This document shows, one piece after another, positions 3,134 through 37,670 of a stretch of DNA of 38,424 nt (the first letter of the stretch is position 1; every line of letters starts with the position of its first letter). The DNA lies in IMG/VR virus record IMGVR_UViG_3300046009_001454, positions 1 through 38,424 of that record. One strand, given 5' to 3'. The notes under the pieces are model-generated. The model was not told where the DNA came from and made no database searches. It saw nothing but the letters and a program-made list of their open reading frames with translations. Source of the DNA: a virus. The position numbers and the translations under genes were made by a program.

Positions 3134-3448
3134 ATGGCTTTTAAACTAAGGAGTTCTAGTTTTGAAATAGATAATACACCAATATATAACGTAGACATGA
3201 ACGACAACGTCTTGGGAATGGCTCAAAATAATGGTTCTATACTAATAAACAAAAATGTTTCACCTTTAGAGATAAAAAAAAATAAAACAGTGTCTCACGA
3301 AAAAGTGCATATAAATCAAATGAGAAGAGGAGATTTAGACTATACTGATACTGATGTTTTTTGGAAAGGTAAAAAGTATTCTAGATCAAAAATGAAAGAG
3401 GGTGCTAAAAACTTACCATGGGAAAAAGAAGCTTATAAAAAGCAATAA
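3134..3448 (+). CDS. Small HExxH metallopeptidase-like protein
   Basis: A 104-residue protein. At about residues 55-59 it has HEKVH, preceded by Ser and followed by INQMRRGDLDY. An acidic candidate for the third zinc ligand lies downstream in LPWEKEAY, near residues 94-101. HExxH plus a later Glu in an E-x-E-A-type helix is the layout of gluzincin-type minimal peptidases such as the DUF4157 group. Between them lies a short beta-like piece, DVFWKGKKYSR. Zinc binding and peptidase activity are inferred from this motif alone, and the chain is very short for a full protease. It may act on virion proteins or cell wall peptides. The start follows the previous stop by one base. Confidence 0.6.
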   Translation: MAFKLRSSSFEIDNTPIYNVDMNDNVLGMAQNNGSILINKNVSPLEIKKNKTVSHEKVHINQMRRGDLDYTDTDVFWKGKKYSRSKMKEGAKNLPWEKEAYKKQ

Positions 3449-24654: not shown

Positions 24655-25068
24655 ATGGAATTAAGTATAAGAGAATTAAGAGAGTCTGATTGGGATACAT
24701 TAACAACCTTTTGGAAAAGTTGGCCAGAATGGAAAACACATCCAACAAAAGAATTGTTACCAATGAATGGTTGTGGTGGTGTTATGGTACTTAAAGGAGA
24801 AGAACCAGTTATGGCTGGTTTTCTCTATTTAACAAACTCCAAGGTTGCTTGGTTAGAATGGATTGTTTCAAATCCAGATTATAGACAAGATGATAGAAAA
24901 GAGGCTTTAGAATTATTAATAAATACATTAGAAAGCGTAGCTATCAATCAGGGTTATGAAATAATACTTAGTATAGGTAGAAATAGTGGTTTAATAGAAA
25001 CACATAAGAAGTTGGGTTACACAGTAGACGATAAACCATCTTATGAAATATCAAAAAAAATAATTTAA
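24655..25068 (+). CDS. GNAT-family acetyltransferase
   Basis: A 137-residue protein with the GNAT layout: MELSIRELRESDWDTLTTFW (strand and helix 1), VMAGFLYLTNSKVAWLEWIV (strands 3-4), then helix 3, and a final LIETHKKLGY with a last strand YEISKKI. The acetyl-CoA loop position, about residues 77-84 (RQDDRKEA), lacks the usual glycine-rich Q-x-x-G-x-G/A form, so cofactor binding may be altered. GNAT enzymes move an acetyl group from acetyl-CoA to an amine. It sits 16 bases after the tail hub gene and one base before an internal protein gene. The substrate may be a virion or host protein, but this is not shown. The fold call is good. Confidence 0.8.
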   Translation: MELSIRELRESDWDTLTTFWKSWPEWKTHPTKELLPMNGCGGVMVLKGEEPVMAGFLYLTNSKVAWLEWIVSNPDYRQDDRKEALELLINTLESVAINQGYEIILSIGRNSGLIETHKKLGYTVDDKPSYEISKKII

Positions 25069-27608: not shown

Positions 27609-30600
27609 ATGGAAGAAATTTATATCTTAGAAGATGGTACGCAAGTAGATTTATCAAAATATTCTGATTTTGAGAAAGTAAAATTTATAAAAGCAAATCC
27701 TAGCGCAAAAAAGAAAAAAGACACTGCAACGGGTGCGAGTGCGGTGTCTCAGAAAAAGACAGCACCAAGTACGGGTTCGTCTTTGGGAAAATCTTCTTCG
27801 GGTTCGAGAAGCAAGTTTAGACTAGCTAACGATGAAGACTTTGAAAAACAAAAACAGACTCAACCTAATAAACCTACATACGGTGTAGAAAAGAAACAAG
27901 GGAATGCTTACGAAGATTACTATAACTTAAAACCTCAAACAACTCAACCAACTGCTAAACAAGAATTAGTATATGATGAGAAAGCAAATAGAGAGTTTAT
28001 TAGTAATTTAGAAAAGAAAAACACTGGTTATTTAGGATTAAAGAAATTGAAACCAGAAGAAGTACAGAATGATGTAAATATTCAAAATGCATTGACTAGT
28101 GGTTATCTTACTCAAGATGACCTAGTCAAAGCTGGTATAACTCAGTCTCAAGATCCTATGTCTTCTTTAAATGTTACTAGTCAAAAAGATATAAACAATG
28201 CTATAAAGAAAGTAAATGCTTTCAGAACTAAAAGACCTGATGAAATAGAAACGTATATAAACGTATCTAAACTAAATACTCCTTATATATATGAAGACTA
28301 TAACGAAGGAGATGATTTTGTTTCTACTTTGTTTGATTCTAATGAACTTGCTTCTAGAAATATAAATCTAAATGACTTTAATGGTTTCTTAACCGAGAAA
28401 GGTTACAAAGATGATATTAAAAGAATGAAAGAACTAGAATTAGACACCGATAATTACGGACAAGGTTATGATGTTAGTTTAAGTTTAGAAAAAAGAAAGA
28501 TACAATATCTTAATATGTATATAAATGACCAGATACAGAGAGATATTAAAAGACAGAAATTAGATTACGAAAAGAAAACTGGAGTTGATCCTGACTTTGC
28601 TGGTATAAAATTTAAACCAAGCAAATGGTCAGCAAACATCGACTTAAGTAATTATCAAGATTTATTAAAGAAAGAAGCTCCTAACTTAACTGCCAAAATG
28701 ATGGAAGTTGATGAGACTAATCTTGAAAACTATAAAAAACTAATACAGTCTAAAGGAAACGTTAGTGCTGGTAAGTTTTTAACTGATGTGCTTAGTAATG
28801 GTTGGAATGGTTTAACTGGAGCTGTAAATGATTTTTCAGCCTCTGTTTATGGTCTATTACCTGGTGATTATTTCGAAGGAGTATCTGAATCTATTAGAGA
28901 GAATAAGTCTATAGATGAAATGCTTAAAGGAGATGAATTTAGATACGTTACTGCTGATGGGTATAAAACAACCGTCAATGGAGTACAATATATATCTAAT
29001 GAGCAAGGTGTTTATGATATAACTAACAAAGTAAACGTAACAAACATTCTACCAGCTCAAGAGTTAGAAAAAATAAAAGACAAAGCTAGAGCAGAAGGAG
29101 TTAGAGATAAATCTGTAAGTGCTATAGGTACTAGTTACCAAGGTGCTAACGTTGTTGGTGATTTGATATTTCAACTTGCAATGACAAGAGGTACGGGTAA
29201 TGGTTTAAAAGCTGTTGGTGGATTTACAGAAGGATTAGGTGTTTTAGGAAAAACAAAAGGTTTTCTTAAATCTGTTCCTATTAAGAAATCTATAGCAGAA
29301 GCTACTATAGCTCAAAGTACTTTAGGTTTTAGCAAAGGATATGAATCTACGTTAAAAATGGCTAGAGAAGCTGGTATAAGAGATTCTGAAGCAAAGGAAT
29401 TAGCTTCATTAGCTTCTATTGAAACTGGCGCTTGGTATGCTATGACAGCTTGGATAAACCCACAAACTAAAACAACTGATATGTTGTTTGGTAAATCTAA
29501 GAACGAAGTTATTGAAAACGCTTTAAATGCTTATGTTAAAGACGGTAAAAAAGGATTTCTTAACTCTCTTAGAGGTTATGGTAAAGATTTTTTAAATGTA
29601 AGTGGAGAAGGTTTAGCTGAAGTTTTTCAAGAAAATATTCAACAAGCAGGTGAGACGTTTGTAGTAAATAAAGATGTCAATGAATTAGCTGGTCAACAAT
29701 TATTAAAAGACACTATGTCTTTGCAAGACTTCATGGATACCTCTGTTTTGTCTTTTGTTGCTGGATCAATTATACCTGGAGCAGGTGCTGGAGTTAATCA
29801 AACAAAGAAAACCGCCAGACAGTTGCTAGGAATGCAAGGGGTTGACAGATTTAATTCCCTAAGCACTTTGGCTTCCAATAAGGACAAAGTTGTTAATTTG
29901 TTGTCTAAACAAGTTACTCAAGGTCTTTACACTCAAGAACAAATGAACGATGTTATAGGCGAGATAGAAGCTTATAGTGGAGCTATAAATAAAGTACCTC
30001 AAGATATTTCAGCTGAAGCAGCAGAAGAGATCTTAGAGGATATAACTAATTTATCTAAATTAGAACAAAAGAAAAAAAGCTTAGATAAATCTTTTCATAG
30101 CGCTATAGATGAAGAGATGGATGTTTTAAGAAATAAAATTAGTAGAACATACTATGATGATATAACTAGTAAAAGAACTTCTACTATTAAAAAAGCAATA
30201 CAAGAAGGAAGAGTAGGTAATATGGAATATAGAGAATTCGATAGTGCTGAAGACTTGAAAAGTGTACTTATTAATGAGTTTAATTACTCAGAAAAAGATG
30301 CTAGTAATATTTCTTCTAATCCAGGTTTTATATTAACTGAAGATAATTTAAAAACACTTTTACCAGAAGACAAGTTTGTTCCTGGTAAAAAAGTAATTTT
30401 CATTAACAACGATGCTGCTTCTAGTATGTCTCAGTTCTCTGTTAATAAACACGAATTCTTACATGGAATTATATATGAAACTATAAAAGAAGATAAAGAG
30501 GCTCAAGTTTTACTTGGTAAAGCTTTAGCTGGTGAAATATTAAATATACAACAAGAAATATCTGCTGGAAATAGAGGTGGCGTAGCTGCTCCCGTTGCTT

Positions 30601-33600
30601 TTTTAAAGAGATTTAATCAATATATTAATAAATACTCTAAATTAATACAACAACAGAAATCTAGATTAGATGCTGGTATGATAAACCAAGATGAGTATAA
30701 CAATATTGTAGATACTTATTTAGGTAATCAATGGGAAGAAGTATTAACTCTTTACTCTGATGCTATAGATAATGGTAGTGTTGTTTTTGATGAAGATGTT
30801 TTTACTAAAATAGGAGACATGATAAGAAGAGTTTTACAAAGACTTGGTATTAAAAATGTAGAATTCAATTCAGGTAAAGATGTATATAACTTTGTTAAAG
30901 ATTACAATAGAAGTATAGAGAAAGGTACTTTCGGTGGGTTATTAGGTAAGAAAAGTGCTTTCGAAAAACTATCAACAAGTAAAGCTAGTATAGATAAAGA
31001 AGCTTTAAGAAAAGAAGTTAAAATGCCTTCAGAAGATAAAAAACCTACTAAACCATCTACTTCTACTGCTGTTGAAAAAAGTGAAAAGAGATTCTCTACT
31101 ACTGAGAAATTCTCTTTAAAAGATAATACACCAAGTCAAGATAAATTCAAAAAAGAAATAAATGATCTTTATGACAGAGACAAGTGGGGTTTTAATTATA
31201 AACCAGACGGAGATAGAAACTACGTAAATAGAGTTTTAGATGAAATACTTACAAAATATGGTATAACGATCGCTCAAAAAGGTAGAGGATACGGTTGGGA
31301 TGTAAAACTACCTGATTATAGCGAGTATGATTTGATTGCGGAAACGCAAACTGCTTTAATTCCAGTAATACGTAACTTTAATAAAGAGTTCTTTACTTTA
31401 AGACAAGAATATAAACAAGAGTTAGAAAAGAGAGGTTTAAAAGAAGGAACTAAAGAGTTTAAAGAAGCTTTAGACCAACAAGACGCTAAAGGTTACAAAG
31501 GTAAAAAAGGTGTAGTAAAAGAAAACAACGATCTAAACGCTTACATAAATAGTTTACTTAGATTTAAGATGTACGATGCTCTTAAAACTGGATATGTAAC
31601 ATCAAAAGTATTTACAAGTAATATAGATGACGAAGCGTTTAAAGAATCGTCTATGGAAAGTTTTGACTACTACGAGACTTCAGAAGAAATGTTAGATGAC
31701 ATCGACACTTTATTGAACGAACAAGAGTCTTTTGAAGCAGAACAAAACAAATTAGCTGTATTACTAAAAGATCCAATATTTGGTTTTACTGATGAAGATG
31801 GTAATTTCATAGAAATAGAAACAATACCACTTGGTCTTAGTTTTATATCTGATATAAACGACCCTATAATACCTGCTAATAAAAAATTAAATAGAACAAC
31901 TGATCCTAAAGAAATACAAGTTTTAAAAGAACAATTATCTAAATTAAAAAGAGGTTTAGAACTTGAATCTAAAGAAGATATTACTCCTGAAGAAAAAGAA
32001 GAATTAAAGTCTTTAAAGTCTTTTAAATCTTATAATTTATCTACAGGTGGAATGGTTAACACGTATGAAGCATTTTCTTCAGTAGATATTCCAGCTAAAA
32101 TTATAACAGAGGAAATATCTAGAGAAATACTTAGAGTACCTAATATAGAGACCTTAGAATATAGAAACTTTAAAGATAAATTATCTTTAACAGCTCAAAC
32201 AATGGCTAGAAGAATGACTTTTAAAAATAGTGATTCTTTGAATAAATTCATGTATGACAATTGGGAAACTATATACGGTGTTATAAATAACCCAGTAGAT
32301 CCAGTTTCTGGAGAATCTAGTTATGCTTCTAAGAAACTACCTCCTAGATTAAAAGAGTTAGATGAAAATGGCAACTTTATAAAGCGTAAGAACATGAATA
32401 GAGCTTTGTTCTTACAGTCTTATTTTGGAGACGAAGATGCTAAAAAAATAATAGAACAATATTCTAAAAACCCTGGTAGTCAAACAAAACTATTTGAAGA
32501 TCCAGAGGTTAACGAGAAGACTGGTAAAAAATTATGGCCAACAGCTTATTTTGATAGACGTACGGCTCTTATGGAATTATTTGGTGATGTTTTAGTTTTA
32601 CAAGAAGCTAGAAGATTGTTAAGAAACGAAGCTTTTTTAGAATCTGTAAAAGACAGAAACCAAAACTTATACGAAGCATTAAAAGACGATATTACTAGAA
32701 ACGCTATATTAAATAATATGGCAAAAGGGAAGAGTGATATTGTTAAGTTTAGTTTAAGTTTTGCGCCTAATAATGAAGTAGAAGATATAGATATAACTAC
32801 TACAAAAAGAGTTATAAGCGAAAAATATGTAAAAGAATCAGTTAACAGTATATCTAACAATCCTATAAACAAATTATTAAAACCTAGTAGTATAGAAGAA
32901 ACTGTTAAATACAGTTTAAAAGATTTAACTTCTAAAAAACTAGAGGGTTATAATAAGAAATATGAAAACAACTATAAAGAAGTAGAAGGCAAAGGTAAAT
33001 TTACTAGTAAAAAATCTAGAGACAATTGGTTTGAAAAAGAAAAGAAAGATTATGTTAAAGTGTTAATGTTATCTGATTTAAAAGATCAAGTACCTGGAAC
33101 AAAACTACATACTTTAAGAAGTTTTGATGAAGTAACTAAAGAAGTAGAAAAAAGAATTGACTTCATGGTTCAAAGCATGCTATCTACTGCTAATGAAGAA
33201 ACCGTGGATCTTGGATTAGACTACAAACCTATATATTTATACACTGGAGCTGACGTTAACATAGAGAGTCTAAATGTAGATGAAAGAGATTTAAGGATAA
33301 ATGAGATAACAAATATTAGATTAGAACAAAATTACATGTTAAATCAAGTAGTTGATCTAATTACACAAAGAGATTATGGGCAAAGAAATATTGACAAAAA
33401 AAAATATAAGTATAATATATTTTACACTTATTTGTTTTTAGAAGATGTATTATCTAATAGATATGATTTAGATTATAATAACAAAGATATACAAAGAAAG
33501 AAATTCAAACAAAGTGACTATGCTAGAACAAGATTACCTATAAATGCTCCTAGTGAAACGTTCTTGAAGGAATCTTTAGATACTTTTTATGATTCAGATA

Positions 33601-36600
33601 CTTTATATCCATTAGCGGCGTATAACTTATATAAAATAGAAAAAGAAGAAGAATTCATAAAAGAATGGGATAAACAAAGAATGTTTTTGCCAGAACTTAG
33701 CAATGAACATAAAGCCTATAAGTTTAATCAAAGTGACAGACAAGAAGATATATTTTCTTTACATGTATTTGCTTCTAGAAATAATAAATCTAAATGGTGT
33801 ACTGGTCAAGCTTTGTCTTATGCTGAAAATCAATTATCTGGAGGTGATTTTTATATAATATCAGATAAAAACTATAATCCTGTTATAGCTTTTAGAATGG
33901 AAACAAACGAAAACACTGGCGATGTAAAGATAGGAGAAATAGTAGGTGTCCACGAATATGATTCTTATACACAAAGAATAAAGAAAGAAGAAACAACTTT
34001 GTTAATTGAACTTTATAATGCAATTGTTTCGAAAGAAAAAGACTTTAATAAAGAAGTTAACGACATTAGTTTGGTTTTAAATAATATTGACAATATATTA
34101 AAATACGAAGATTCTAGTGATGATACTTTTATATACGATAAAGAAACTTTTTTAAAGCAAGTAGCAAAATTTGTTGCTACAAAAATAAACTTAGAAGATT
34201 CAAAACACATTAAATCAAAACTGACTTCAATTAAATTTGATATTAAAGGTGGTAATGATATAGGTACTATAGCAGATTTTATAGATTACGATGATGAGGT
34301 TGAAGTTATTGTAAACCTTGATGATACTATTAAAATTGATGCTAACGGCATGGTTTCTGGTGATTTAATCGACTTGCTTAGTTCTTTTAATGACATTGAA
34401 CAAGATATCACTGACAGCGCATTAGCGTTTAATGCAGATGCTGGTCAATTTTCTTTTAGAATAGAGAACACTGTAGATTTACAAAACAGAATAAGAGGCG
34501 GTTTATCTTTAGATAATATAGTTACAACTACCGGACTTATTAATGTTACTTTTTCTGGATTTAACTCGTATGAATTTAATAATCTAGAAGAAGGAGGTAT
34601 GTCACAATTTTACGCAAATGTTAATGGTTTAGACCCTGTTTTAACAGTAAAAGAAAATGCCGAATTTGAGATTGTTGATTTTAATCTAATCGTAGATAAA
34701 TCTGATCTTATTCTTCAATACAGCAAGAACGAAGAATTATATATTGAATTATCGCAAAATAAAGTTTTAGCTTCAATGGCTAATATAACTATAAAAGAAG
34801 AAGTTGTACCTACAGTTGTGCTTGCAGAAAATGTAGACACAACAGAAATTAGATTAAACGGTAATTTTGAAGTGTTTTTAAATGAAAATGTAGAAGAAAT
34901 AGTTTTATCAGATTCTTCACAATCAAAAATTAATTTATTAAATGACTTAAATAAATTAAAAATATATTTATTTGAAGAAGATGCTGATAATTTATCTATT
35001 GATAATATAGAAGTTTTATTTCCTAAAGAAAAAAGAGGTAAAAATTTATATATAGAAACAATAAATAAACTTATTTTAGATAACACATTTTTAACAGAAA
35101 TAGCAAACTCTAAATTAACAGAAGGTTTCGATAATGTCTACGTAAATTCCGTTTATAGTGAAGAAAAAAGGATTGAAATAGTTTTAAAAGAAGGTGGAAA
35201 ATTAAAAAACGATTCTTCAAGCAATGCTGATAACATTAAATTTAGTCTAGCAGAAGAAAACAATGCTAAATATTCTGTGTACATGGAAAATTTTGGCATC
35301 AAAGACCAGTTTGAAATTGCTAGAATATTAGATGATGCTGTTTTTAAAGCTAGAACTATATCTAAGAATCCAAAAACTTTTAAAGTTCCTAATCTTGAAG
35401 GTATGAATGATAAAGCAATATCGTTTTACTTAATAGATAAAGTTTCTAAAGGTTATAATGACTTTGAATTTTTAAACAAAGATAATTCTAAAGGTAATTT
35501 AACAAATGACGTTTTAAATGTTTCAGATATTAAGTTTAGTATTGCTAATGAGAATGCGGAAGAAAACGACAATCTAGATGCTGAATTTAGTGGTTTCATA
35601 GAAAGTAGATATAATAGTAATCCTGAAATTGGTTTAAACGAAATAATAGAGGAAAATAAGAAAATTCCATCAACTCAAAAATTCTCTCCAGAAACTGCTA
35701 AAAACAGAGGAAAGAATATTGGTAGACACGATATATGGCTACCTCCACAAGATGAAGATTTTTCTGGACTATTATATAGATTAGCTTCTGCTAAAGGAAA
35801 AGTTGGTGAAGCTCAAAAAGACTTCTTTGACAAACACTTAATAAATCCTTATAGTGACGCTATGTTGAATCTAATGCATGCTAGACAAGCAATGTACAGA
35901 GATTGGACTAATCTTATAAATAAAAAATATAAAGGTATAAGCAAGAGACTTAAAAAAGATTCTGGATATGAAGGTTATACTCTTGACCAAGCTGTTAGAG
36001 TTTTTATTTGGGATTATAATGGATTTGAAATACCTGGATTAGATGCTAAAGATCAACGTACTTTAAGAGATATAGTTAGAAAAGACAAAGAATTAAGAGC
36101 TTTTGCTAGTGATATATCTATACTATCAAAACAAGCTAATGGTTATATAGAACCAGATCACAATTGGGGTTTTGGTACTGTTGTTGGTGATATAAATAAT
36201 GTTATATCTAAATCAAACAGAGATAAATTCTTAGAACAGTGGCAACACAATATTGATAAGATATTCTCTAAAGATAATTTAAGTAAAATAGAAGCTGTAT
36301 ACGGTAGAGTTTATGTAAGTGCTTTAAAGAACATGCTACAGAGAATGAAGACAGGTTCTAATAGAGCAGAAGGTTCTAACGATGAATTTATGAATTGGTT
36401 GAATGGAGCTACTGGTGTTACGATGTTCTTCAACATGAGATCTGCTTTGTTACAAACTATATCTGCTAGTAACTTTATAAATACTACAGATAATAATGTG
36501 GTTAAGATAGGTATGAGAATGGTTGATTTACCTCAGTTTAGCAAAGACTTTAGTGAATTATGGAATTCTGATTATTTAAAAGACAGAAGGTCTGGTTTAA

Positions 36601-37670
36601 TGAATGACGTTGCTGAAGCGGAGTTAGCACAGGTAATGAATGATCCTCGTAATAAAAACGTGTTGGATAAATTCAAAGCTGCTAACTATTGGATATTGAA
36701 GCAAGGTTTCTTACCTACTAGAATGGCTGATAGTTTTGCAATAGCTTTTGGAGGTGCTAGTTTTTATAGAAACAGAATAAACACATATAAAAAGCAAGGT
36801 TTAAGTGAAGAAGATGCTAAGAAGAAAGCTATGAGAGATTTCTATGAAACATCGGAAGTATCTCAACAGTCTGCTGACGTTTCTAGAATATCTCAAAACC
36901 AAGCTAGCGTTAAAGGTAGACTTATATTTGCGTTTCAAAACACTCCTTTACAATACAGTAGAATTATAAAGAAATCTGTTATAGATATTGCTAAAGGTAG
37001 AGGTAGTTTAATTAACAATGCTGCAAAAATATTATATTATTCTACTATTCAAAACGTATTCTTTAACTTTATGCAAAATGCTTTATTTAGAGTTTTATGG
37101 GACGATGATGATGAACAGAAAGAAGCTGGTTTAACTAAAGACAAAGTTAGAGCTGCTAATGGAGTTTTAGATACTCTACTTAGAGGTTCCGGTATGAAGG
37201 GTGTCATTATATCTACAGTAAAAAACATAGTTGCTAAATGGTATGAGAAACACGGTGATCAAAGTGCTGGTGGTGAAGTGTTAGTAGAAGCTTTGAATAT
37301 ATCTCCTCCAATAGGTATTAAAGCTAGAAAGCTAATGCAATCATATAAGACTGTAGAATGGAATATTGATGAAATAAAAGAAAAAGGTTTTAGTATAGAA
37401 AACAAATACGCTTTAGAAGCTACTTCTACTATTACATCTGGAGTTTTTAATATTCCTGTAGATAGACTTTATGTGAAGACAAATAATGTTGCTGATGCTT
37501 TAAACTCTGAATATGGCACTTGGGACAGAATATTCTTCGCTCTTGGATATAATAAATATAACTTAGACGTGGAAGAAGATGAAGATAGTGGAACTGGAGT
37601 TGTTTCTAGGAAGATAATAAAACAATCTTTAGATAAACAAAAGTTAAGCAGAAAGAAATTAGTTAGATAA
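27609..37670 (+). CDS. Giant internal virion / polyvalent protein (3353 aa)
   Basis: The last and largest gene of the operon. Residues 2-37 carry an N-terminal pattern DGTQVDLSKYSDFEKVKF, then a basic low-complexity linker to about residue 75. Residues about 505-730 are Gly/Ala-rich helices likely to touch membranes (STLGFSKGYESTLKMAREAG, SVLSFVAGSIIPGAGAGV). HEFLH at 948-952 fits the zinc peptidases often found in such proteins. Residues about 1241-1326 resemble sigma-70 region 2. WCTG at 2063-2066 begins a PcfJ-like WCT domain, followed by a beta-rich repeat region to about 2540. Residues 2692-3353 form a helical end domain with RLIFAFQNTPLQYSRIIKKS, typical of large polyvalent proteins. 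[KR][FY]S motifs at 1161, 1167, 1713, 1767, 2544, 2554, 2642 and 2691 mark boundaries. It is probably ejected into the host; individual activities are inferred. Confidence 0.8.
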   Translation: MEEIYILEDGTQVDLSKYSDFEKVKFIKANPSAKKKKDTATGASAVSQKKTAPSTGSSLGKSSSGSRSKFRLANDEDFEKQKQTQPNKPTYGVEKKQGNAYEDYYNLKPQTTQPTAKQELVYDEKANREFISNLEKKNTGYLGLKKLKPEEVQNDVNIQNALTSGYLTQDDLVKAGITQSQDPMSSLNVTSQKDINNAIKKVNAFRTKRPDEIETYINVSKLNTPYIYEDYNEGDDFVSTLFDSNELASRNINLNDFNGFLTEKGYKDDIKRMKELELDTDNYGQGYDVSLSLEKRKIQYLNMYINDQIQRDIKRQKLDYEKKTGVDPDFAGIKFKPSKWSANIDLSNYQDLLKKEAPNLTAKMMEVDETNLENYKKLIQSKGNVSAGKFLTDVLSNGWNGLTGAVNDFSASVYGLLPGDYFEGVSESIRENKSIDEMLKGDEFRYVTADGYKTTVNGVQYISNEQGVYDITNKVNVTNILPAQELEKIKDKARAEGVRDKSVSAIGTSYQGANVVGDLIFQLAMTRGTGNGLKAVGGFTEGLGVLGKTKGFLKSVPIKKSIAEATIAQSTLGFSKGYESTLKMAREAGIRDSEAKELASLASIETGAWYAMTAWINPQTKTTDMLFGKSKNEVIENALNAYVKDGKKGFLNSLRGYGKDFLNVSGEGLAEVFQENIQQAGETFVVNKDVNELAGQQLLKDTMSLQDFMDTSVLSFVAGSIIPGAGAGVNQTKKTARQLLGMQGVDRFNSLSTLASNKDKVVNLLSKQVTQGLYTQEQMNDVIGEIEAYSGAINKVPQDISAEAAEEILEDITNLSKLEQKKKSLDKSFHSAIDEEMDVLRNKISRTYYDDITSKRTSTIKKAIQEGRVGNMEYREFDSAEDLKSVLINEFNYSEKDASNISSNPGFILTEDNLKTLLPEDKFVPGKKVIFINNDAASSMSQFSVNKHEFLHGIIYETIKEDKEAQVLLGKALAGEILNIQQEISAGNRGGVAAPVAFLKRFNQYINKYSKLIQQQKSRLDAGMINQDEYNNIVDTYLGNQWEEVLTLYSDAIDNGSVVFDEDVFTKIGDMIRRVLQRLGIKNVEFNSGKDVYNFVKDYNRSIEKGTFGGLLGKKSAFEKLSTSKASIDKEALRKEVKMPSEDKKPTKPSTSTAVEKSEKRFSTTEKFSLKDNTPSQDKFKKEINDLYDRDKWGFNYKPDGDRNYVNRVLDEILTKYGITIAQKGRGYGWDVKLPDYSEYDLIAETQTALIPVIRNFNKEFFTLRQEYKQELEKRGLKEGTKEFKEALDQQDAKGYKGKKGVVKENNDLNAYINSLLRFKMYDALKTGYVTSKVFTSNIDDEAFKESSMESFDYYETSEEMLDDIDTLLNEQESFEAEQNKLAVLLKDPIFGFTDEDGNFIEIETIPLGLSFISDINDPIIPANKKLNRTTDPKEIQVLKEQLSKLKRGLELESKEDITPEEKEELKSLKSFKSYNLSTGGMVNTYEAFSSVDIPAKIITEEISREILRVPNIETLEYRNFKDKLSLTAQTMARRMTFKNSDSLNKFMYDNWETIYGVINNPVDPVSGESSYASKKLPPRLKELDENGNFIKRKNMNRALFLQSYFGDEDAKKIIEQYSKNPGSQTKLFEDPEVNEKTGKKLWPTAYFDRRTALMELFGDVLVLQEARRLLRNEAFLESVKDRNQNLYEALKDDITRNAILNNMAKGKSDIVKFSLSFAPNNEVEDIDITTTKRVISEKYVKESVNSISNNPINKLLKPSSIEETVKYSLKDLTSKKLEGYNKKYENNYKEVEGKGKFTSKKSRDNWFEKEKKDYVKVLMLSDLKDQVPGTKLHTLRSFDEVTKEVEKRIDFMVQSMLSTANEETVDLGLDYKPIYLYTGADVNIESLNVDERDLRINEITNIRLEQNYMLNQVVDLITQRDYGQRNIDKKKYKYNIFYTYLFLEDVLSNRYDLDYNNKDIQRKKFKQSDYARTRLPINAPSETFLKESLDTFYDSDTLYPLAAYNLYKIEKEEEFIKEWDKQRMFLPELSNEHKAYKFNQSDRQEDIFSLHVFASRNNKSKWCTGQALSYAENQLSGGDFYIISDKNYNPVIAFRMETNENTGDVKIGEIVGVHEYDSYTQRIKKEETTLLIELYNAIVSKEKDFNKEVNDISLVLNNIDNILKYEDSSDDTFIYDKETFLKQVAKFVATKINLEDSKHIKSKLTSIKFDIKGGNDIGTIADFIDYDDEVEVIVNLDDTIKIDANGMVSGDLIDLLSSFNDIEQDITDSALAFNADAGQFSFRIENTVDLQNRIRGGLSLDNIVTTTGLINVTFSGFNSYEFNNLEEGGMSQFYANVNGLDPVLTVKENAEFEIVDFNLIVDKSDLILQYSKNEELYIELSQNKVLASMANITIKEEVVPTVVLAENVDTTEIRLNGNFEVFLNENVEEIVLSDSSQSKINLLNDLNKLKIYLFEEDADNLSIDNIEVLFPKEKRGKNLYIETINKLILDNTFLTEIANSKLTEGFDNVYVNSVYSEEKRIEIVLKEGGKLKNDSSSNADNIKFSLAEENNAKYSVYMENFGIKDQFEIARILDDAVFKARTISKNPKTFKVPNLEGMNDKAISFYLIDKVSKGYNDFEFLNKDNSKGNLTNDVLNVSDIKFSIANENAEENDNLDAEFSGFIESRYNSNPEIGLNEIIEENKKIPSTQKFSPETAKNRGKNIGRHDIWLPPQDEDFSGLLYRLASAKGKVGEAQKDFFDKHLINPYSDAMLNLMHARQAMYRDWTNLINKKYKGISKRLKKDSGYEGYTLDQAVRVFIWDYNGFEIPGLDAKDQRTLRDIVRKDKELRAFASDISILSKQANGYIEPDHNWGFGTVVGDINNVISKSNRDKFLEQWQHNIDKIFSKDNLSKIEAVYGRVYVSALKNMLQRMKTGSNRAEGSNDEFMNWLNGATGVTMFFNMRSALLQTISASNFINTTDNNVVKIGMRMVDLPQFSKDFSELWNSDYLKDRRSGLMNDVAEAELAQVMNDPRNKNVLDKFKAANYWILKQGFLPTRMADSFAIAFGGASFYRNRINTYKKQGLSEEDAKKKAMRDFYETSEVSQQSADVSRISQNQASVKGRLIFAFQNTPLQYSRIIKKSVIDIAKGRGSLINNAAKILYYSTIQNVFFNFMQNALFRVLWDDDDEQKEAGLTKDKVRAANGVLDTLLRGSGMKGVIISTVKNIVAKWYEKHGDQSAGGEVLVEALNISPPIGIKARKLMQSYKTVEWNIDEIKEKGFSIENKYALEATSTITSGVFNIPVDRLYVKTNNVADALNSEYGTWDRIFFALGYNKYNLDVEEDEDSGTGVVSRKIIKQSLDKQKLSRKKLVR
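30450..30464 (+). other. HEFLH zinc-peptidase motif in giant protein
   Basis: Codons for His-Glu-Phe-Leu-His, residues 948-952, preceded by Lys and followed by Gly-Ile-Ile. The motif fits HExxH zincins such as the peptidase domains of polyvalent proteins. The third ligand is not certain; acidic residues follow within 20 positions (KEDKEAQ). Confidence 0.6.
31326..31590 (+). other. Sigma-70 region-2-like segment in giant protein
   Basis: Residues 1240-1260 read YDLIAETQTALIPVIRNFN, and residues 1307-1326 NDLNAYINSLLRFKMYDALK, like the D-L-x-Q-E...A-I-x-x-F and F-x-x-Y-x-x-x-x-I-R...A-L pair of helices in sigma factors. The two are separated by a Lys/Glu-rich stretch where sigma factors have only a short turn. 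The likeness is from pattern only. Confidence 0.4.
33786..33920 (+). other. WCT (PcfJ-like) domain core in giant protein
   Basis: W2063, C2064 and T2065, followed by a beta hairpin GGDFYIISDKNYNPVIAF and then GEIVGVHE. This W-C-T...(Y/F)x-I-x-x-x-x-x-x-P-V-I layout recurs in PcfJ-like and polyvalent phage proteins. Its activity is unknown. Confidence 0.45.

Follow-up and report, generated by a model that had tools for sequence, protein, structure and literature searches.

A short conserved motif at the module borders of a giant phage protein, placed C-terminal to a predicted zincin-like peptidase domain, as a possible self-cleavage tag

Does the giant protein encoded at this locus cut itself into pieces, and if so, where along the chain? 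The question is raised by a single open reading frame of 3353 aa (27609..37670, on the plus strand, as are all features described here), which carries an HExxH peptidase signature and repeats of the short motif [KR][FY]S. The window, i.e., the whole stretch of DNA that was analysed, is a linear IMG/VR fragment of 38,424 bases, and by its gene content it belongs to an uncultured, podovirus-like phage of Bacteroidota. Its terminase shares 64% identity with the terminase of MW202828.1 and 43% with those of Flavobacterium elemoviruses, and weaker terminase relatives are found in Cellulophaga, Tenacibaculum and Maribacter phages. The window also encodes a crAss-type muzzle domain. The structural operon runs in the order terminase, portal, structural proteins, muzzle and giant, and this last slot holds a giant in relatives as well. 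In elemoE and phi38:1 the protein in the giant slot carries a structural annotation, and sequence links from these two to the window giant are weak or absent. A single chain of this size within a phage structural operon is the arrangement expected of the polyvalent MPTase proteins. Elsewhere in the window, genes assigned by eye as GroEL-like (truncated by the window start) and GroES-like lie at 3-1485, and both GroEL and GroES are also annotated in MW202828.1 and elemoE. An acetyltransferase-like gene, likewise assigned by eye, adjoins the muzzle gene (24655-25068); the corresponding gene of MW202828.1 bears the annotation N-terminal acetyltransferase subunit.

A preliminary description of this DNA, made from the letters alone, reported eight [KR][FY]S motifs in the giant together with HEFLH at residues 948-952, and proposed that the motifs are cleavage sites of a self-processing polyprotein. 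HEFLH and all eight positions (residues 1161, 1167, 1713, 1767, 2544, 2554, 2642 and 2691) were recovered. The tally itself was short by two, at residues 17 and 1008, neither of which marks a border. The resulting ten matches compare with 3.1 expected from composition (P = 0.0015, 2000 shuffles). A strict form of the motif, [IVLM][KRMQ][FY]S[KRLMI], was defined post hoc from relatives. It occurs six times in the window giant against 0.29 expected, and 0 of 3000 shuffles reach six; one of the six (3115) falls within the conserved C-terminal core and another (2370) at no known border. The pattern [IV][KR]FS[KLRM] stands at 14 times expectation in giants and at 1.0 times in the other ORFs of the same phages. 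The excess of the strict form is likewise absent from shuffles and from those other ORFs.

About 120 giant relatives were gathered, first by way of the terminase and then by alignment of the C-terminal core. Statistics were computed on a first set of 77 non-redundant giants. The pattern was then held fixed and applied to 43 further giants (the second set), drawn after matches to the first at 70% identity over half the length had been removed; 40 of these 43 have HExxH or HExxxH. A tblastn search of the giant against the phage collection gave no relatives, nor did scanning viral contigs with the optional module or the C-terminal part as single sequences. The phage collection likewise yielded no cultured relative that bears the motif. 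The conserved core itself (residues 2690-3323, 35676..37577) aligns to nine giants at 39-68% identity (alignment A1). Some of these phage contigs (L182-L197) sit in bacterial, and even archaeal, MAG bins, making host labels there unreliable.

Within the nine-member clade that includes the window, motif positions are conserved and the flanks are variable. The preliminary description had named in advance a lack of positional conservation among homologues as the outcome that would speak against its proposal, and on this comparison the proposal is not refuted. Five sites at module borders hold their positions, a sixth does so in part, and two do not. Site 1167 (KFSL, 31107..31115) lies between the peptidase part and module 1 and reads K-F-[SA]-L in all nine members, with KFAL in L100, L104 and L106. 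Site 1713 (KFSL, 32745..32753), at the end of module 1, reads [VI][KR]FS[LMI] in all nine as well. At the start of an optional module, shared within the clade by the window and L091 alone, site 1767 (KYSL, 32907..32915) is KFSL in L091, and at the end of the module, site 2544 (KFSL, 35238..35246) is kept where a module is present, with RFTL in L104. Site 2642 (KFSI, 35532..35540), just ahead of the C-terminal core, is KFS in six of nine. Site 2691 (KFSP, 35679..35687) retains [FY]S in eight of nine, with the preceding K only in L091 and the window. The motifs at 1161 (RFS, 31089..31097) and 2554 (KYS, 35268..35276) are unconserved in the clade, as are those at 17 and 1008. The residue after the motif is L in the window clade and K elsewhere; otherwise there is no clear split by type of HExxH. 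A short sequence conserved at module borders is the feature expected of a self-processing polyprotein, found here at the level of sequence.

These data bear directly on the simplest alternative, i.e., that chance or composition accounts for the motifs. The chain is rich in Lys and Ser, two of the ten matches are plainly incidental, and a further two are unconserved. Such an origin is nonetheless scarcely credible: the excess in the giant, the shuffles of the strict form, the conservation by position and the replication in the second set all argue against it, and it is contradicted by the conservation of sites 1167 and 1713 throughout the clade.

The motifs had also been described as lying between recognisable segments and not inside them. 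Where this could be tested it holds, given that sites 1161 and 1167 (in protein residues 1139-1174, model residues 290-325) and sites 1713 and 1767 (in protein residues 1707-1800, model residues 858-951) fall at pLDDT below 50 in model A, with site 1713 at about 30; the overlooked motif at 1008 is an exception, falling on a helix within the region predicted as peptidase. Model B also scores below 50 at 2544, 2642 and 2691, but its mean is only 45 overall, so little weight is placed on these low scores. The linkers that carry the motif are predicted to be flexible.

Comparison among relatives shows that the presence or absence of whole modules is delimited exactly by a pair of motifs. For example, in L102 (GKSSIVKFSLAEEEN) the left half of site 1713 joins directly to the right half of site 2544, such that the two sites have become one. 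Between the same two tags there are 194 residues in L103 and 831 in the window. The direct join and the length difference together indicate that modules come and go between tags. Across the 77 giants, homologues whose alignment ends within 25 aa of [KR][FY]S number 2.2 times expectation, a value as high as this being found in 0 of 5000 circular shifts. In the second set alignment ends lie near [KR][FY]S at 2.8 times expectation and near the strict form at 3.7 times. A motif is found within 25 aa in approximately 20% of 110 module indel junctions versus 5% of random positions. The second set also has the form [KR][FY]T in excess at borders, at 2.5 times expectation, suggesting that the serine may not be strict.

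Exchange of modules at the motif could also mean that the motif is solely an evolutionary seam, where recombination occurred at short stretches of similar linker DNA and the peptide has no role. Sites 1713, 1767 and 2544 of the window have near-identical codons with AGT for serine in each, and L102 resembles a clean join. Both families of serine codons are in use, however, which argues against this reading. The serine is TCN at site 1167, both TCN and AGY at site 2642 within the clade, and TCN in 26 of 87 strict sites across the giants. It is the amino acids that are conserved at the motif, not the codons, and the peptide is retained where no module is missing. The AGT shared by three sites suggests that linker recombination may contribute to the pattern without explaining all of it; as the sole origin of the motif it is improbable.

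Pfam and PHROGs searches of the whole chain and of its pieces gave nothing over the cut-off, including no polymerase domain, and a profile search of solved structures returned nothing notable. Module 1 (residues 1170-1712, 31116..32744) lies between sites 1167 and 1713. For its N-terminal part, at approximately residues 1170-1330 (31116-31598), three weak lines agree on a sigma-70 region-2-like segment: structure matches to several RpoD chains at Z 5.0-5.7, an hhalign comparison to sigma-70 at E 0.07 and a Sigma70_r2 match at E 0.12 in one member. The likeness is suggestive only. Within the optional module (residues 1770-2543), residues 2003-2167 (33615..34109) weakly resemble a GNAT or MYST acetyltransferase, with structure matches to many acetyltransferases at Z 6-7, under the trust line of 8 for the tool. 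The candidate effector or nucleic-acid domains of the giant are sigma-70-like and GNAT-like, both at weak Z only.

The putative protease within the chain is a predicted zincin-like metallopeptidase domain at residues 850-1100 (30156..30908), with the conserved HEFLH at 30450..30464. In model A the HExxH helix (pLDDT about 60-71) comes after three strands modelled at about 77-90, and a WEE helix roughly 94 residues past HEFLH, conserved in the window clade, is a candidate for the third ligand. HExxH or HExxxH is found in 77 of 77 first-set giants, indicating that a peptidase signature embedded in the chain is conserved across the family. A Foldseek search with the peptidase model A gave no match with E below 0.001, so assignment of the fold draws on the signature and the model. 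A weak match (Z 5.1 over 182 residues) relates residues 857-1101 to residues 2158-2366 of the N4 vRNAP, gp50.

The position of the motif relative to this domain is strongly polar. In the 77 giants, with the last 830 aa excluded, the strict motif is found twice upstream and 47 times downstream of HExxH (P 2e-11). The 40 new giants of the second set repeat the pattern, with one upstream and 38 downstream (P 2e-8), and control patterns are even on both sides. This polarity helps to weigh a further explanation, in which the tag is never cut and acts, once per module, as a docking or packaging signal, with the capsid interior, the portal, the ejection machinery or a chaperone as its partner. Binding would account equally well for a short motif that is conserved in flexible linkers and precedes unrelated modules. 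In addition, the peptidase region has its sole weak structural match in the N4 vRNAP, a protein that has an MPTase domain and enters the virion without being processed (PMC5512222). By itself, docking leaves the placement of the motif on the far side of the peptidase unexplained, and it is rather doubtful, while deserving real consideration.

Cleavage in trans by another protease, either of the host or encoded elsewhere in the phage, would also yield cut sites at module borders. The window has a candidate in a small HEKVH protein of 104 aa (3134-3448), zincin-like by signature. A small HExxH protein of this kind is found in at least 25 fetched relatives, mostly at terminase loci. No excess of the strict motif is found in other ORFs of these phages, and the placement of the motif is tied to the in-chain HExxH, making cutting in trans quite unlikely. 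Some weight is left to both docking and trans cleavage because the N4 protein with such a domain is packaged uncut.

The reading in which the in-chain zincin of the giant cuts at the tag is possible, judged just short of evenly balanced. We infer that cutting occurs, that the zincin performs it, that the bond cut lies at the tag and that the protein is ejected. The chain would be arranged as [N-terminal region - zincin] - KFS - module - KFS - optional modules - KFS - C-terminal core, where h-K-F-S-[LK] in flexible linkers would be the recognition site for the zincin carrying HEFLH. Cutting might happen while the protein is being packaged or once it is inside the host, and it would detach modules from both the peptidase part and the core of a polyvalent protein that is probably packaged in the virion and ejected. 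Multiple observations count against self-cleavage. The N4 vRNAP is packaged whole, the strict motif is missing from 45 of 117 HExxH giants, borders of the second set show an excess of [KR][FY]T too, the Foldseek result for the peptidase model is null, the giants of MW202828.1 and elemoE are nearly free of the motif and the link between HHDxxH and tag loss is weak.

The last two of these points concern exceptional members of the family. HHDxxH is found in three second-set giants, and the tag ahead of the core is lost or altered in all three and kept by their close relatives. The replacement of HExxH by HHDxxH with a changed pre-core tag was noted in L227, L242, L243 and L259. The association is striking among close relatives and not significant over the whole set, with the strict motif in 0 of 3 HHDxxH giants versus 72 of 117 HExxH giants (P 0.06), and noncanonical forms of the pre-core site are common among HExxH giants too; a link between HHDxxH and tag loss was set aside. 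The giants of MW202828.1 and elemoE (L082 and L083) have HExxH and almost no KFS tag, and they may use another code or none.

Broadened to the family, the proposal is of giants with an in-chain cleavage code, in which the tag appears only after the zincin and modules can be added between tags and released, in parallel with the polyproteins of RNA viruses. This wider view is held tentatively, at somewhat below an even chance. A conserved tag in a clear position with respect to the peptidase points to exact bonds for testing; the sources read name no cut site. The tag would also allow products to be predicted in many uncultured phages, and it would reveal how new modules are built into a giant virion protein by phages.

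Known systems share separate attributes with the window giant. In SPN3US, head proteins and ejection proteins are matured by the gp245 prohead protease, which cleaves at a short motif (PMC10052503), so that short-motif proteolysis is common to both, but there the protease is a separate protein that cuts after AXE. P1 DdrB is an HExxH protein processed to ~76 kDa before packaging (PMC5512222); unlike the window giant, it has 995 aa, and its single KRFS at 756 has no obvious fit to the product and could be chance. The N4 gp50 protein is ~3500 aa, is ejected, and its HExxH lies in the C1 domain (2124-2375), beyond which comes a large C-terminal domain (PMC12633501; PDB 9pnt). The weak fold match of the window giant falls inside C1. 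The two differ in that N4 gp50 is packaged unprocessed, no sequence match was found, and the Pfam and PHROGs searches showed no RNA polymerase in the window giant. A parallel in architecture is with the polyvalent proteins of phages and conjugative elements, in which Iyer et al. in 2017 described a zincin-like MPTase, with HExxxH variants noted, and proposed self-processing (PMC5512222). When 395 genomes of one phylum were surveyed for ART-PolyVal proteins, only 4 had a match, too few for an independent test. Unlike those proteins, as far as the accessible sections of that paper describe them, the giants have a border motif, and the window protein has no Pfam domain at the cut-off. The literature searched, mostly outside subscription papers, holds no earlier description of the motif or its polarity. 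The giants and the polyvalent MPTase proteins are alike in being phage-encoded multidomain chains of great size, with an HExxH domain and interchangeable modules. Processing itself has been proposed since 2017; the addition here is a border tag that is specific and conserved and holds a fixed position with respect to the peptidase.
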